From an uncultured bacterium (GTDB lineage: Bacteria > Bacteroidota > Bacteroidia > Chitinophagales > CAIODY01): a stretch of DNA of 56,143 nucleotides. The notes under the pieces were generated by a model, which had not been told where the DNA came from, did not search any database, and was given only the letters and a program-made list of their open reading frames with translations. The stretch's first letter is position 1, and every line of letters begins with the position of its first letter. The stretch is taken from positions 1 through 56,143 of the forward strand of contig CAIODY010000023.1 in the NCBI GenBank assembly GCA_903857255.1. The letters are read 5' to 3'. Below, piece by piece: positions 6,097 to 32,075 of this stretch. Made by a program: the position numbers and the translations under genes.

Positions 6097-8001
6097 ATGA
6101 AATTCTATTTAATAATTTGCAAAGCAATCATCCTTGCTGGGTTGCTTTTTGCTCAACAAGCGATGGCGCAACAATTTGGCTATGTAGATAAGTTGGCAAC
6201 CAGCTATCAACAGGTGGATACGGTGTATATTAATACTTATGTGCACCCGGTAGCGAATTATATTTATTTGTACAACATTAATCAGGTAAAAGTAGATTCA
6301 GCTTTGGTGATTAATCATACGCAGGATACTACAAGGGTTGATACGCTGGATTTGGATTTTCATTTTTTACCTACTGCCGTTTATCATTGCAACATTAAAA
6401 AATCGGGGCTGTATTATTGGGAAAATAATGTGATGATGATTATAAAAAGCATTACGCCAAAGAAATTGACTGTGGTTTATCCATCAAACACCACCAGTGC
6501 TTATAATGATGAAGGTGGCAGAAGTTTTTACACCAATCCTATGATTCATTATTTATCTTTTCATAGGGGGCAATCTATGGATGGGTTTTCAACTGATTTT
6601 TTTAAATGGATGCTGAATTCAAAGTTTGATTCTATCACTAATTATGTGATTGATTCAGATTTGGATAGTTTGAATCATTTTATCAATTCCGATTTGTTAG
6701 TGATTCCTGGGCATAGCGAATATTGGTCGAGAGCGGCAAGGGTAAACTTTGATGCTTTTGTAAATGCTGGGAAAAACGTGGCTGTATTATCAGGCAATAC
6801 CATGTGGTGGCAAATTAGATATTTAGATGATTATAAAACTTTGGTGTGTTATAAAAGCACGGCTGATACCATTACCGATAAATCATTGGCTACTATTAAT
6901 TGGTATTTGCCCAGTTTGGCTTACCCTATTCAAAATAGTATAGGTGCTGATTATTTAAGTGGCTACATCAGCAATTATCCGCTTGCAGGATTTGATGGCT
7001 TTAAGATTATTGATACCTGCTCGGCTATTTTCAATCAAGTTGATTTGCACACCAATAATGTGATACACGTTGAAACGCATGAGTTTGATGGCATGCAAAT
7101 ATCCCTTGTAAATGGCATTCCGCATCATAATAATAATTATCAGCAACATTATTTAGAAGAATTATTGGGCTATGATATTGGCACTAATTGCGGTAAAACT
7201 ACTTACCCCACTTTCCAAATTTTTCAGCATGAAAAAACCAGTGGCAAGATGGTTCAGCTTGGAACTACCAACTGGTGTGGTAAATATGGCATGGGTGGTA
7301 CCGATTCAGTAAGAATTAAACAAATTACCCAAAACATTTTCGATGGGTTGCTTTCGCAAAACATTTTTTGCAAGCCCAATAGTTTTTATTCGTACAATGC
7401 AATGGCTTGCTTAAACTCGGGTTATTATTTTCATCATAAAACAATCAAAAAATCGGGTATTTATTACGATTCGCTGATTAATAGTTTCGGCGGCGATTCT
7501 ATTGTTGAATTGCACCTTTCTTTCTATCATTCAATGCCTTTTCAGGTAAATGCTTGTGGAAATAAGCTCACGGTTACTGCCCAAAATGCAACCTTTCAAT
7601 GGATTGATGGAAATACGCTTCAGCCATTTATTGGTGAAACCGATTCAGTGTTTGAGCCTGCTCCTAATACTAAATGCGCTGTTATCATCAAATTTAACAA
7701 TCAACCCTGCACCGATACCTCAGCTACTTATTCCTTGTTGTTAGGCACAAGCAGTATTGATTGCAAACAAGCCATTTCATTGTATCCTAACCCGGCTCAT
7801 ACCAATTTATTTATCAATACTGCACAAAAAATTAGTAGAATAGATGTGTATGATGAAATTGGTAAGCTCCTTTATATACCTATCCAAATCAGCTTTGAAC
7901 AAGCCATCCTCAATATTCAATCATTGCCTAAGGGTATTTATTTCCTCATCACCACCGAAAGCAATGGCAATATGCTCCAAAATAGGTTTATTAAAGAATA
8001 A
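6097..8001 (+). CDS. Secreted DUF6605-like (DMFase beta-subunit-like) protein with T9SS sorting domain
   Basis: This 634-residue protein has a signal peptide ending QAMA. The central part carries the marks of the N,N-dimethylformamidase beta-subunit-like C-terminal domain (DUF6605). YPSNTTSAYNDEGG lies near residue 127, then HRGQSMDG, and GHSEYWS near residue 204, followed by NVAVLSGNTMWWQIRY. The fold resembles a glutamine-amidotransferase-like domain, but most secreted members have no assayed activity. The last ~75 residues (from LYPNPAH) are a type A T9SS sorting domain, so it is expected on the cell surface or released. It stands alone, followed by the 41-bp repeat. I assign the domain with moderate confidence from its motifs and do not assign an enzyme activity. 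Confidence 0.65.
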   Translation: MKFYLIICKAIILAGLLFAQQAMAQQFGYVDKLATSYQQVDTVYINTYVHPVANYIYLYNINQVKVDSALVINHTQDTTRVDTLDLDFHFLPTAVYHCNIKKSGLYYWENNVMMIIKSITPKKLTVVYPSNTTSAYNDEGGRSFYTNPMIHYLSFHRGQSMDGFSTDFFKWMLNSKFDSITNYVIDSDLDSLNHFINSDLLVIPGHSEYWSRAARVNFDAFVNAGKNVAVLSGNTMWWQIRYLDDYKTLVCYKSTADTITDKSLATINWYLPSLAYPIQNSIGADYLSGYISNYPLAGFDGFKIIDTCSAIFNQVDLHTNNVIHVETHEFDGMQISLVNGIPHHNNNYQQHYLEELLGYDIGTNCGKTTYPTFQIFQHEKTSGKMVQLGTTNWCGKYGMGGTDSVRIKQITQNIFDGLLSQNIFCKPNSFYSYNAMACLNSGYYFHHKTIKKSGIYYDSLINSFGGDSIVELHLSFYHSMPFQVNACGNKLTVTAQNATFQWIDGNTLQPFIGETDSVFEPAPNTKCAVIIKFNNQPCTDTSATYSLLLGTSSIDCKQAISLYPNPAHTNLFINTAQKISRIDVYDEIGKLLYIPIQISFEQAILNIQSLPKGIYFLITTESNGNMLQNRFIKE

Positions 8002-13721: not shown

Positions 13722-15248
13722 TTATTCTTTGATGAATTTAGCTACTTGCTGAAAACCTTTTTCATCGGTGACTTTCAAGAAGTAAATCCCCGAAGGATAG
13801 TCGTCAGTAGTCAGTCGTAAGTCGTAAGTGGAAAGCGGTGTGATAGCTGCTTTCATTTTTTGCCCAAGAACATTTGTAACTTCTATGGTATTGACTAATG
13901 ACTGTTGGCTGATGACTATTGATTGATTAGCTGGGTTGGGGTAAAGGCTTAATGGTGAATGGTTAGTGGGGAATGATGAAATACCAATGCCAATATCTTT
14001 GATAGTATCACAACCACCTACTAAACAACCCATACTATCTACATGAACTAACCACATTTCTTGCTTTGGTGGAGAATCGAAATTAGCAGCACTGCCTGCG
14101 GCAAATATGCTGCCATCTGTGGCTACAGCACCTGCATAAAAAAAGCCAAAATCGGTGGGGTTATGCCATATTGGACGAAACCATTTTTCATTACAGTTTT
14201 TATCATACTTTGATATAGCACCAATTTGATTACCATTGGCTTTTGAAGTATCAACTGTTGAAGAGCACATGACAAAGCCGCCATTTGGTAGTAAAATAGG
14301 AGGGGATGCAAAGTGATTATAAACGTAGGCAATTTGTGTGAAATCCCACTTTTTATTCCCGTTCTTATCAATTTTAGCAAACCAATTTAATCCTAATCTT
14401 AAAGGATTGGGGTTGTATGTTGTGGTATCATGTTCGCTCAAACAAATTATAGAAGAGTCTTTTTGAGGAATAATATAAGTGCCGAATAAATCATTGGCTT
14501 TCTTATATTCGTTATACCAAATAATATTACCTCCTGTATCTACCTTATGTACGGTGCTTCTAGCCAAATAATTACTTGCATGTACATCCCATTCATAGTA
14601 TTGACCTCCTAATATTAAATTGCCATCAGCCGCTTGAGCAATGTTTAATAGATAATGTCCCCATCCACCCCTTCCCCAATTTTTAGTCCATTTCAAATTG
14701 CCATTGCTATCAAATTTGAGCAGGTAGTATTGAGCATAAGTTGCATTATTGCTATCGCATTCACCAACTGCATAAATATCTCCATTCGGAAGTTGGATGC
14801 AAGATTCAATGTTTTCATAAAATGCAGTGTCGCCATATGTTTTTATCCAAACTGTATCTCCATTCAATTTAAACTTTATAATCATGGCATCAACTCCATT
14901 ATGATGATTATAAAATGCACCTGCGGCAATAATTGAAGAATCATTTTGAAAAAATGTACCACCGTTTATAGCTATGTAGTACTCCAAAGAATCTGTTCGA
15001 TAGACTTTTTGAAGAATAGTATCGCCATTTGATTGATGTTTAGTAAAATACATGGCGTCACTTTTATTTATTCCTGCCCCCCAACCAAGTGTATATACAA
15101 AACTGTCTTTCAATAAAAGACTTGAAGCACCTCTATCAATACACTTGTTTACATAAGGATAAGTTCTGTTAAACCTTACCAATGATTGACTACAAACTAT
15201 GCCTTTGATGCTTGTAATAAAAATCAGCAAGAATAGTATTCTTTTCAT
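13722..15248 (-). CDS. Secreted beta-propeller-like T9SS cargo protein
   Basis: This 508-residue protein starts at the ATG at 15248; an upstream in-frame TTG is less likely because the -7 element at 15266-15273 leaves only a short leader. A signal peptide ends near VCSQ. The body is built of repeated blades of the type GDTVWIKTYG, DSNGNLKWTKNWG and KNGNKKWDF, typical of secreted PQQ/kelch-like propellers of unknown ligand. From LYPNPANQS it has a type A T9SS sorting domain ending QVAKFIKE. The sorting-domain DNA contains short TACGACT/GACTACTGACGACTA-type micro-repeats. It is followed after 3 bases by the TrpG-like gene. Surface or secreted location is well supported; function is unknown. Confidence 0.75.
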   Translation of the reverse strand: MKRILFLLIFITSIKGIVCSQSLVRFNRTYPYVNKCIDRGASSLLLKDSFVYTLGWGAGINKSDAMYFTKHQSNGDTILQKVYRTDSLEYYIAINGGTFFQNDSSIIAAGAFYNHHNGVDAMIIKFKLNGDTVWIKTYGDTAFYENIESCIQLPNGDIYAVGECDSNNATYAQYYLLKFDSNGNLKWTKNWGRGGWGHYLLNIAQAADGNLILGGQYYEWDVHASNYLARSTVHKVDTGGNIIWYNEYKKANDLFGTYIIPQKDSSIICLSEHDTTTYNPNPLRLGLNWFAKIDKNGNKKWDFTQIAYVYNHFASPPILLPNGGFVMCSSTVDTSKANGNQIGAISKYDKNCNEKWFRPIWHNPTDFGFFYAGAVATDGSIFAAGSAANFDSPPKQEMWLVHVDSMGCLVGGCDTIKDIGIGISSFPTNHSPLSLYPNPANQSIVISQQSLVNTIEVTNVLGQKMKAAITPLSTYDLRLTTDDYPSGIYFLKVTDEKGFQQVAKFIKE

Positions 15249-15265
15249 AGCATTCAATTGTTCAA

Positions 15266-28755: not shown

Positions 28756-28849
28756 GATAGCACACGGATTAACACTGATTTTTTATGATTAAAACAAATT
28801 TTCAAAATCCGTTCAAATCTTTTTCAATCCATTCAATCCGTGTGCTATT
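28756..28849. repeat. dcw intergenic repeat, copy 1 (mraY-murD gap)
   Basis: This 94-base element has ends ATAGCACACGGATT (28757-28770) and AATCCGTGTGCTAT (28835-28848) that are perfect 14-bp inverted repeats. After the left end comes AACACTGATTTTTTATGATT, shared base for base with copies 2 and 3. The right arm also resembles AATCCGT blocks inside the element. Confidence 0.85.
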
Positions 28850-28883
28850 GCATTTCACATTTTCTAATCTTCTAATTTTCTCA

Positions 28884-30155
28884 TCATCTAATCTTCAAAG
28901 TTGCAATCGCAAACAACGCCAACATAATTCCGATGATGAAAAATCGCATCACAATTTTTGATTCGTGCATGCCCGTTTTTTGATAATGATGATGCAACGG
29001 CGACATTTTAAACAATCGATTTTGCTGCGCATATTCCAATCCATATTTTTTCTTCCGATATTTAAACACAGCCACTTGCAACATCACTGATAAATTTTCG
29101 ATTAAAAAAATGCCACAGAAAATCGGAATCAATAATTCTTTTCTCACACACAAAGCCATTGTTGCAATAATTCCGCCCAATGCCAAACTTCCGGTATCGC
29201 CCATGAAAACCTGCGCTGGATAAGTGTTGTACCACAAAAACCCTACACATGCTCCAATGAAAGCTGCACCAAAAACCACCAATTCGCCCACATGCGGTAT
29301 GTACATGATGTTGAGATAACGAGCGAAATTTATATTGCCACTCACATACGCAAACACCACCAATGTCAAACCAATAATCGCCGAAGTGCCCGTTGCCAGC
29401 CCATCTATGCCATCTGTGATGTTTGCACCATTACTTACCGCAGTGATGATAAACACCACAATCAAAATGTAAATTATCCACGAATATTTTTCATAACCAT
29501 CGCCCAACCACGAAATCAATTTGGCATAATTGAACTCATGCGTTTTTAAAAATGGAATGGTTGTAACTGGCGCTTTCACACTATCCATGCTGCTTTCCAC
29601 GTCTTTGTTGAAGGCTTGTAAAAAACTAACTTGTGCATTTGTAGCAGTTTGTACCACACCATCTTTCACAATTTCTTTTTTGATAATCACATGTTTGTTG
29701 AAGAACAATGATGAACCCACCAACAAGCCCAAGCCAATTTGTCCCATCACTTTAAACTTGCCAGCTAATCCTCTTTTATCTTTTTTGAAAACTTTGATGT
29801 AGTCATCTACAAATCCGATTGTCCCCATCCAAATCGTGGTTGCAATCAACATTAAAATGTACACGTTCAACACTCTTGCAAATAAAATTGTCGGAATCAG
29901 AATTGCAGCCAAGATGATTAATCCGCCCATGGTTGGCGTTCCTTTTTTTGATTGTTCGCCAGCTAATCCTAAATCACGAATGGTTTCGCCGATTTGTTTT
30001 TTCTGTAAAAATTTCACAATTCTTTTACCCAACAACAATGAAATCACCAACGAGAAAATCGCTGCCCATGCGGCTCTGAAGGTGATGTATTTAAACAGCC
30101 CTGCACCTGCAAGATTGAAATGGTCGTGTAAGTAATTGAATAGATAGTAGAACAC
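28884..30155 (-). CDS. mraY: Phospho-N-acetylmuramoyl-pentapeptide transferase (MraY)
   Basis: MraY moves phospho-MurNAc-pentapeptide to undecaprenyl phosphate, making lipid I in the inner membrane. The 423-residue protein has about ten helices and the catalytic regions GFVDDYIKV (acidic pair), [11 protein letters not shown] near 244, [12 protein letters not shown] near 314 and HHHYQKTG near 390. It is longer than the ~360-residue enterobacterial form because of a periplasmic insertion (~155-205), common in Bacteroidota. The start codon is GTG at 30155, directly abutting the left inverted repeat of the S23 cassette. The stop codon is TGA, which shows TGA works as a stop in this genome. Confidence 0.95.
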
Positions 30156-30606
30156 GTTAATTGTTAATGGTTAATCGTTAATATGAATACAAAGTCCTTC
30201 AATTTTTTTCTTTTTGTTTTTCTAAATAATTTATAAATCCGTTTGTCAAAGCCAAAGTTTTCTCAATTAATTCTCTTCCTTGTTTCAAGTCGCTTTCAGA
30301 AATATATTCTTCATCAAAAGCAATTATCAATTGGTCTAAGACTTCATACAATCAGCCTCTACTTGTTCTGCAATATTGAATATATTCCTTGTAATGAAAT
30401 CGTCCGTAGCCCTCTGCAATATTGTTTGTGATTGAATATGCAGCTCGTTTCATATTGTTCTTCAAAACATAAGTTTCTTCTTTCGGAAATTTTTTACTCA
30501 ACTTTGAAACATACAATCTCACTTCTCTTCCCGACTTCCAGCATTCTAAATCTTCAAATGTTTTTACTTGACTCATTGTTTTTTGTCTTTCCGATTAACA
30601 ATTAAC
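30156..30606. repeat. 13-bp inverted repeats bracketing the S23-like gene
   Basis: GTTAATTGTTAAT (30156-30168) is the exact reverse complement of ATTAACAATTAAC (30594-30606). A second pair, GTTAATCG (30170-30177) and CGATTAAC (30613-30620), overlaps this pattern. The repeats are AT-rich, but they sit at both edges of the one foreign-looking gene in the dcw cluster. Confidence 0.45.
30199..30576 (-). pseudogene. Four-helix-bundle S23/IVP-type protein gene, broken by an in-frame TGA
   Basis: The frame from ATG 30576 encodes a protein of the S23 family, first known from intervening sequences of 23S rRNA genes. It has FEDLECWKSGREVRLYVSKL, then NMKRAAYSITNNIAEGYGRF and YIQYCRTSRG. It stops at TGA (30354-30352) after 74 residues. 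The same frame then continues without further stops for 50 codons with the expected family C-terminus (LYEVLDQLIIAFDEE, LIEKTLALTNGFINYL) to a TGA at 30199. The family normally has Ser in RGSLYE, so a single TCA-to-TGA change explains the break. The product would lack its last two helices. It sits between mraY and murE, flanked by inverted repeats. A base-calling error is possible. Confidence 0.8.
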
Positions 30607-30623
30607 CTTTCTCGATTAACTCT

Positions 30624-32075
30624 TTAGAAAAATTCATTCAAAATTTTAACATCATCAAACTCCAACTTCACTCCTTTTATTTCCTGATATTTTTCATGTC
30701 CTTTTCCTGCCACCAAAATCACATCATCTGCTGAAGCCATGCTGCAAGCCAGTTTGATAGCTTCTTTTCTATCTGTAACAGAAAAAGTATTTTTTCCTTT
30801 CCCGAATGGAACACCTTTTTTCATCTCTTCCAAAATCATATCAGGCTCTTCGCTTCTAGGATTATCACTTGTCAAAATAACCAATTCACTTCCTTTACAA
30901 GCTATTTCAGCCATCACTGGTCGTTTAGCTCTATCTCTGTCACCACCGCAACCAACAACAGTTATCAATCTTCCTGCACCGTTTCTGATATTATTAATCG
31001 TTTCAATCACATTTTGCAGCGCATCAGGAGTATGAGCATAATCAACTATTCCAGTCAGTTTTCTTTCTGCATTTCTTATCACTTCAAATCTTCCTTCTGC
31101 ACCTTTTAAACTGCTTAATACTTGCAATACTTCTTCTTTCTTTTCATTCATTAATCTTGCAGCTGCATATACAGCCAACAAATTATAAGCATTGAATTTT
31201 CCAATCATTCTGAAATGCACATCGGTTCCATCCATTTGCATCAACAAACCTTCTAAAGTGTTTTCTAAAACAATTCCTTTGAAATCAGCCATCTGACGAA
31301 GGCTGTAGGTTTTTCTTTTAGCTTTTGAATTTTGCAGCATCACATTTCCTCTCTTATCATCAATGTTACTCAATGCAAATCCATCGCTTGGCATATCATC
31401 GAAGAAACATTTTTTCACTCTTATGTACTCATCAAATGTTTTGTGATAATCCAGATGGTCGTGAGTGATGTTGGTGAAAATTCCTCCTACAAAATTCAAT
31501 CCTGCAATTCTGTTCTGATGAATCGCATGCGAACTCACTTCCATAAAAGCCTTATCACATCCAGCTTCTACCATTTCATGCAACAACTTGTTCAAACTCA
31601 CTGCATCAGGTGTTGTATGTGTGCTTGGAATAATTTGCTCACCAATTTTATTTTGAACTGTTGAAAGCAAACCGCATTTATACCCCAATCCACTAAACAA
31701 TTGATGCAATAATGTTGCAACTGTAGTTTTTCCATTAGTGCCTGTAACGCCTACCAGTTGCAACTTTTCAGATGGATTGTCAAAATAATTTGCAGCTGCA
31801 ATGCCTAATGCCTTAGCAGCATTTGAAGTTTTTACATAAGTAATTCCATCTTTTAATTCAGCAGGAAATTCTTCGCAAACTATTGCTGTTGCTCCTTTTG
31901 TGATTACTTCATTGATGAATTGATGTCCATCATTTGTTGTACCTCTTGTGGCAAAGAACGTTGAACCTTTTTCAATTTTTCGTGAATCGAATTGAATAGA
32001 AGCAACTGAAACATCAGTTCTGCCAAGCACTTCGAGCAGATTCACTTTGTATAGTATGTCGCTTAATAATTTCAA
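30624..32075 (-). CDS. murE: UDP-N-acetylmuramoyl-tripeptide synthetase (MurE), meso-DAP type
   Basis: MurE adds the third amino acid of the peptidoglycan stem peptide. The 483-residue protein has the three Mur-ligase domains. The N-terminal VSVASIQFDSRKIEKGSTFFA region, the ATP loop GVTGTNGKTT (109-118), ITHDHLDYH and VDYAHTPDAL are all present. DNPRSEEP near residue 404 is the motif that selects meso-diaminopimelate rather than lysine, so a DAP-type wall is predicted. The gene lies downstream of ftsI as usual, but the gap to ftsI holds repeat copy 2 and the gap to mraY holds the broken S23 gene. Confidence 0.95.
   Translation of the reverse strand: MKLLSDILYKVNLLEVLGRTDVSVASIQFDSRKIEKGSTFFATRGTTNDGHQFINEVITKGATAIVCEEFPAELKDGITYVKTSNAAKALGIAAANYFDNPSEKLQLVGVTGTNGKTTVATLLHQLFSGLGYKCGLLSTVQNKIGEQIIPSTHTTPDAVSLNKLLHEMVEAGCDKAFMEVSSHAIHQNRIAGLNFVGGIFTNITHDHLDYHKTFDEYIRVKKCFFDDMPSDGFALSNIDDKRGNVMLQNSKAKRKTYSLRQMADFKGIVLENTLEGLLMQMDGTDVHFRMIGKFNAYNLLAVYAAARLMNEKKEEVLQVLSSLKGAEGRFEVIRNAERKLTGIVDYAHTPDALQNVIETINNIRNGAGRLITVVGCGGDRDRAKRPVMAEIACKGSELVILTSDNPRSEEPDMILEEMKKGVPFGKGKNTFSVTDRKEAIKLACSMASADDVILVAGKGHEKYQEIKGVKLEFDDVKILNEFF

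Follow-up and report, generated by a model that had tools for sequence, protein, structure and literature searches.

An S23-family gene between inverted heptamer arrays in a murE–mraY gap: a candidate gene-bearing member of a dispersed repeat family

Introduction

The intervening sequences (IVS) of 23S rRNA brought S23/IVP proteins to notice decades ago, and to our knowledge these proteins have no settled function. In the Chitinophagales draft genome considered here (G000, 2.97 Mb), a gene of this family lies within a protein-coding operon, between murE and mraY, on contig 23, the 56,143 nt of which constitute the window that we analysed. How did such a gene come to occupy this position, and what are the inverted repeats on either side of it?

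Results

An S23 gene with an internal stop occupies the murE–mraY gap

The gap between murE and mraY is filled by a 468-nt insert (30156-30623) with the layout arm, S23 gene, arm. The features of the locus are as follows:

28884..30155, minus strand: mraY, with a GTG start adjoining an arm
30156..30623, minus strand: whole insert (468 nt), murE stop to mraY start; the same insert in G001 and G002, a 3-nt gap in G004 and G005
30156..30187, plus strand: downstream arm, GTTAATT GTTAATG GTTAATC GTTAAT (plus-strand reading), an array matched in strength by few others of period 7 in 448 kb of the genome
30199..30576, minus strand: S23/IVP gene of the four-helix bundle type, 125 codons, interrupted by one TGA; profile matches, relative of 2gsc
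30352..30354, minus strand: in-frame TGA, codon 75; a Ser codon in both congeners
30589..30620, minus strand: upstream arm, GTTAATC GAGAAAG GTTAATT GTTAATC (minus-strand reading), beginning 3 nt past the murE stop
30624..32075, minus strand: murE; 3 nt separate its stop from the upstream arm

On the far side of mraY, before the following gene of the operon, lie eight-base repeats of the TTCTAATC type without S23 (28842-28880).

The open reading frame of the insert matches PF05635 (S23/IVP; E 2e-29, 102.3 bits versus a curated cut-off of 33.8) and TIGR02436 ('four helix bundle protein'; E 1e-25, 89.7 bits versus a cut-off of 24), and the original prediction of an S23-family gene between mraY and murE is thereby confirmed. 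It is also related to a solved S23 structure of five chains, 2gsc (E 1.3e-11), which we take to be a Xanthomonas protein. In the assembled sequence the frame is broken at codon 75 by a TGA (30352-30354), beyond which it runs on for 50 sense codons; it is open in both congeners (G001, G002). The stop had been attributed to a single C-to-G change in a Ser codon; the congeners do have Ser there, but two neighbouring substitutions are found rather than one, the other being a silent base in the codon preceding the TGA that differs from both congeners. Their open frames likewise agree with the proposed decay of the gene and indicate that the damage is recent, although this decay is particular to the murE–mraY copy, S23 genes in general being under purifying selection (see below). 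A stop is present in about a dozen of the approximately 155 S23 matches listed.

Among the three congeneric species the insert is 98.7-98.9% identical, whereas identity is 84-96% over the murE end and 92-100% in mraY, which makes recombination or recent spread likely.

The inverted repeats belong to degenerate heptamer arrays

GTTAATTGTTAAT is found at 30156-30168, adjoining the GTG of mraY, and its exact reverse complement at 30594-30606, as had been described. The flanks are thus truly inverted, but they are not a simple 13-bp terminal repeat; the 13-mer is the best-matching part of degenerate heptamer (GTTAATN) arrays that, with mismatches allowed, span 30156-30187 and 30589-30620 (32 nt, 78% complementary). 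The 13-mer with up to two mismatches is not rare in the AT-rich window (10 matches versus 7 expected). The complementarity of the two flanks as a whole lies 5.7 s.d. above dinucleotide shuffles. A predicted RNA fold pairs the arms, giving the insert the complementary, stem-capable termini of a 23S rRNA IVS, and the stability of the whole insert is no greater than that of shuffles (z -0.65).

Six S23 copies are present in the genome, and the inverted heptamer-like flanks of each are its own. The GTTAATTGTTAAT ends are absent from the other five, which carry inverted heptamer arrays of their own. It had been proposed that a lack of these same ends on other S23 copies would reduce the flanks to chance AT-rich sequence. 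This rule is too narrow, as the conserved trait is inverted heptamer arrays and not a fixed sequence. GTTAATN arrays of at least three units occur in the genome only at the murE–mraY locus and at pntA–pntB, and a fixed terminal sequence for S23 cassettes was dropped in favour of a shared architecture. In differing between the six copies, the arms also depart from the fixed terminal inverted repeat of an insertion sequence or MITE. The S23 copies of G000 have diverged from one another and give no sign of a recent burst, and one of the proteins has a 97% identical relative in a Chitinophagales MAG. The S23 copy on contig 34 (L006) has three heptamer arrays: two lie upstream, inverted to each other so as to form a hairpin, and the third lies downstream in direct orientation.

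Empty sites point to arrival as a unit

The 468-nt insert is present in all three genomes of the genus (G000, G001, G002). In the sister genus, two of three genomes (G004, G005) have a 3-nt murE–mraY gap, gcc, without heptamers, which provides the empty site anticipated in relatives, and across most of the order this gap measures -1 to 15 nt. The same pattern holds for a second cassette, at atpF–atpH, which is present in G000 and G002 and is replaced in the sister genus by 21 or 45 nt without heptamers. Both sites support the suggestion that the cassette arrived as one unit. Two genomes, G003 and G012, have a short heptamer stretch (one arm array) without S23 at the murE–mraY junction, so insertion into pre-existing heptamers is possible. 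For target-site duplication, the empty sites came from the sister genus only and were diverged gaps of 3 nt or 21 nt.

Inverted heptamer arrays accompany S23 genes across Bacteroidota and relatives

A first survey covered 74 S23 loci from about 60 genomes and a second covered 80 separately fetched named loci, for a total of 154 loci from Bacteroidota and relatives. In the first set, flank complementarity averaged 16.7, versus 9.7 for mismatched loci and 11.1 in direct orientation; it reached p <= 0.01 against dinucleotide shuffles at 54% of the 74 loci, and some loci had no complementary flanks. Flank self-identity at lag 7 was 0.41, versus 0.256 in 731 control windows, and was raised again at lag 14, with 7 or 14 being the best lag in ~70% of flanks. 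The 80 further loci gave a lag-7 identity of 0.44/0.45. Over all 154 S23 loci, 81% had an array on at least one side, versus 20% of 50 other gaps at the same loci. Arms are about five units in size, the detection floor being four units; within a locus they are complementary, and the heptamer differs from locus to locus. At L006 the arms are largely direct, and at L243 they are direct rather than inverted.

The neighbours are co-directional with S23 upstream in 68/72 cases and downstream in 65/72, in core operons; downstream genes include atpH, nuoD, lpdA, mraY, thiolases and acyl-CoA dehydrogenases. Genomes carry 0 to 16 S23 copies, and presence at any one site is patchy.

The same arrangement was found at many of 16 plasmid S23 loci of other phyla (14 cyanobacterial, one from Gemmatimonadota and one from Azospirillum); over the 16, mean lag-7 identity was 0.45/0.42 and complementarity 17.6 versus 9.5. 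The Azospirillum locus came from a search with a hand-written S23-like consensus, as the sole match carried further from it. On a Nostoc edaphicum plasmid, GGGAGTA arms enclose an S23 gene located between two ribonucleotide reductase genes; the arm heptamers are GGGTGTA in Calothrix and GGGAACA in Nostoc sp. C052, and the Picosynechococcus and Leptolyngbya arms consist of 8-mers. The signal is weak at the Calothrix sp. PCC 7716 and Azospirillum loci, and the Pseudanabaena arrays are direct, not inverted. At three cyanobacterial plasmid loci (L243, L245, L333), S23 lies inside CRISPR-associated clusters, in the orders cas6-S23-cas4 and cas10-S23-cmr3. A phage origin of S23 was rejected, as no S23 match was found in the phage collection.

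Heptamer arrays also occur without S23

Arrays were counted in genome samples of 100 to 448 kb. In 448 kb of G000, strict period-7 arrays are present, most of them away from S23, and there are no strict arrays of period 4-6 or 8-13. The pntA–pntB gap of this genome (C134:21829-21930) holds an inverted heptamer hairpin without S23; in another genome (G099), an S23 cassette occupies the gap upstream of pntB. At atpF–atpH of a further genome (G031), an S23-less hairpin is nearly identical in sequence to an arm of that genome's own S23 cassette. The S23-less arrays of G000 are closer to its own arms than to foreign arms (59% at P <= 0.1), a likeness to which base composition may contribute. With the pntA–pntB hairpin and this own-arm likeness, non-coding copies share ends with gene-bearing copies in the same genome, as in REP/RAYT systems. 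In 100-kb samples of four genomes each, which are small and uncorrected for kinship, array counts were 1, 0, 0 and 0 for genomes without S23, 1, 7, 0 and 1 for those with one S23 gene, and 6, 3, 3 and 5 for those with 13-15. One genome, G120, has a single S23 gene yet many arrays.

Other repeats were seen in the course of this work. In the window, heptamer arrays at 13796-13840, 13889-13917 and 13942-13969, two of them mutually inverted, lie in the C-terminal part of an ORF (13722..15257, minus strand) that resembles a T9SS-sorted protein and has native-looking sequence between the arms. On contig 134 of G000, L127 has a perfect GCACACA array of about eleven units (7702-7800). GxxExxY (PDDEXK_3, PF13366) genes, with six matches in G000, have inverted flanks of about nine-base units of the types GCAGAGGAC, CACAAAGCC and AATTCGTGG (loci L081-L110, e.g. 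L084, L091, L093 and L098); their complementarity is 14.5 versus 9.65, lag 9 is highest upstream, and they may represent another family of cassettes.

Arms change together while the S23 protein is conserved

At one fixed site, upstream of an acyl-CoA dehydrogenase gene (28 loci), the arm match was 20.8 within loci and 11.2 across loci at 45-60% S23 identity. The arms match within but not across loci, indicating that both change together. The median dN/dS of S23 was 0.08 (57 pairs), which shows that S23 proteins are generally under strong purifying selection and rules out a pseudogene family with rapid sequence change. That S23 has stayed at one site for so long, at a dN/dS of about 0.08, is more suggestive of use by the host than of plain parasitism. 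For the thiolase-linked S23 genes, the tree of 74 short proteins did not resolve monophyly, that is, retention versus repeated insertion.

Discussion

We think it rather probable that the S23 gene and its inverted heptamer arms form an IVS-like cassette, the member that carries a gene within a dispersed family of heptamer hairpins, in a relationship akin to that of RAYT genes and REP sequences. The cassette would have entered the murE–mraY gap as one unit in an ancestor of the genus, and the stop would have damaged S23 later, in the present species. S23 genes outside rRNA would then be gene-bearing members of the dispersed heptamer-array hairpins. The arms could pair in the transcript, with the S23 frame looped out, or in single-stranded DNA, and S23 may bind or move them: an oligomeric S23 protein might recognise the heptamers in RNA or DNA, perhaps with one repeat per subunit, and such recognition could spread, renew or maintain the arrays. 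A wider proposal, which we put forward tentatively and hold to be somewhat short of probable, is that S23/IVP genes and inverted heptamer arrays constitute one previously unrecognised class of element, in at least Bacteroidota and Cyanobacteriota, that enters core operons at the gaps between cistrons, renews both complementary arms together and is the source of a large part of bacterial heptameric repeats, with the 23S rRNA IVS as a special case.

The arms might instead be host sequence, generated in short operon gaps by polymerase slippage and template switching, from which inverted copies would also arise, with S23 sitting there or inserting into an existing hairpin loop, as IVS do on rRNA helices. 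The existence of S23-less arrays and hairpins fits this explanation, as do the S23-less heptamers at murE–mraY in G003 and G012, the coding-sequence arrays at 13796-13970 with native sequence between their arms, and the use of a different heptamer at each locus. We nevertheless judge it unlikely, given the excess of arrays at S23 loci over other gaps of the same loci (81% versus 20%), the two sister-genus empty sites without arrays and the near absence of arrays from the four S23-less genomes. Even less can be said for chance, under which an ordinary decaying gene has AT-rich flanks that only seem to be repeated. Inexact copies of the 13-mer are not rare in the window, but the periodic and inverted signal recurs over the 154 loci and over 16 plasmid loci that are richer in G+C and have unrelated heptamers (GGGAGTA, GGGAACA); chance flanks are refuted by these pooled statistics, and we give them almost no weight.

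Our analysis also has to be set against a host-owned regulatory module, in which the stem-loop acts on translation of the cistrons at its sides, by insulating or coupling them, or serves as an RNase III substrate. Selection would then maintain S23 as an autoregulator that binds RNA, and mobility would be rare and incidental. Co-directional placement in core operons, arms adjoining stop and start codons, concerted arm change at fixed sites and a dN/dS of 0.08 would all be expected of such a module, and in Coxiella the stem of an S23-coding IVS is cut by RNase III (PMC4990558). Patchy presence per site, a copy number between 0 and 16 per genome, S23 genes carried by plasmids in other phyla, and a frame broken in the present species without obvious harm to an essential operon speak against it, and we consider it as unlikely as host-made arms. 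The cassette remains our preferred reading. Heptamer repeats and S23 proteins have each been known but unexplained, and our data tie the two together across phyla. The link provides S23 with a concrete candidate substrate, its own heptamer arm, and heptamer repeats with a candidate source, and dated insertions with empty sites allow the movement of the element to be studied. In open-licence papers we found no connection of S23 or GxxExxY genes to heptamer or nonamer arrays.

Several known systems share parts of this architecture. REP sequences are dispersed short palindromic repeats, a few copies of which bear a gene (RAYT) with inverted repeats of that kind on either side. The heptamer family likewise combines dispersed repeats with a few gene-bearing copies between inverted repeats of their own kind, but S23 is not a Y1/HUH transposase, we know of no nuclease activity for it, and the cassette arms are tandem heptamers that vary between copies. 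Similarity to Avd of diversity-generating retroelements is weak, covering ~50 residues below the curated cut-offs of PF22296 and NF033474 (15.9 bits versus 40 for one profile and 19.3 versus 80 for the other), and the neighbours examined included neither a reverse transcriptase nor a template repeat.

Heptamers of the GGGAATC and GGGGA(C/T)T types are abundant in Xanthomonas and Nostoc, with about four units preferred, a function that is unexplained and no general association with mobile elements; inverted pairs number 70-75 per Xanthomonas genome and 70 in X. campestris (PMC4692102). Beggiatoaceae have TAACTGA repeats (PMC4679880). Like the arrays described here, these are intergenic, lie near ORF ends, often comprise about four units and partly form inverted pairs. 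S23 genes are absent from both accounts, and unlike those repeats, many heptamers in our data are AT-rich and cannot form G-quadruplexes. The closest parallel to the cassette itself is the 23S rRNA IVS. In Coxiella burnetii, an S23 gene lies between complementary ends that are cut by RNase III, and a selfish or formerly mobile nature has been proposed for IVS (PMC4990558). IVS and cassette have in common a PF05635 gene of ~120 codons, complementary ends of similar size and sense orientation in the transcript (PMC4990558). Where the IVS sits in a 23S rRNA helix, the present insert lies between murE and mraY, in an intercistronic gap of a protein-coding operon, and its kind has heptamer-array arms that differ at every locus.
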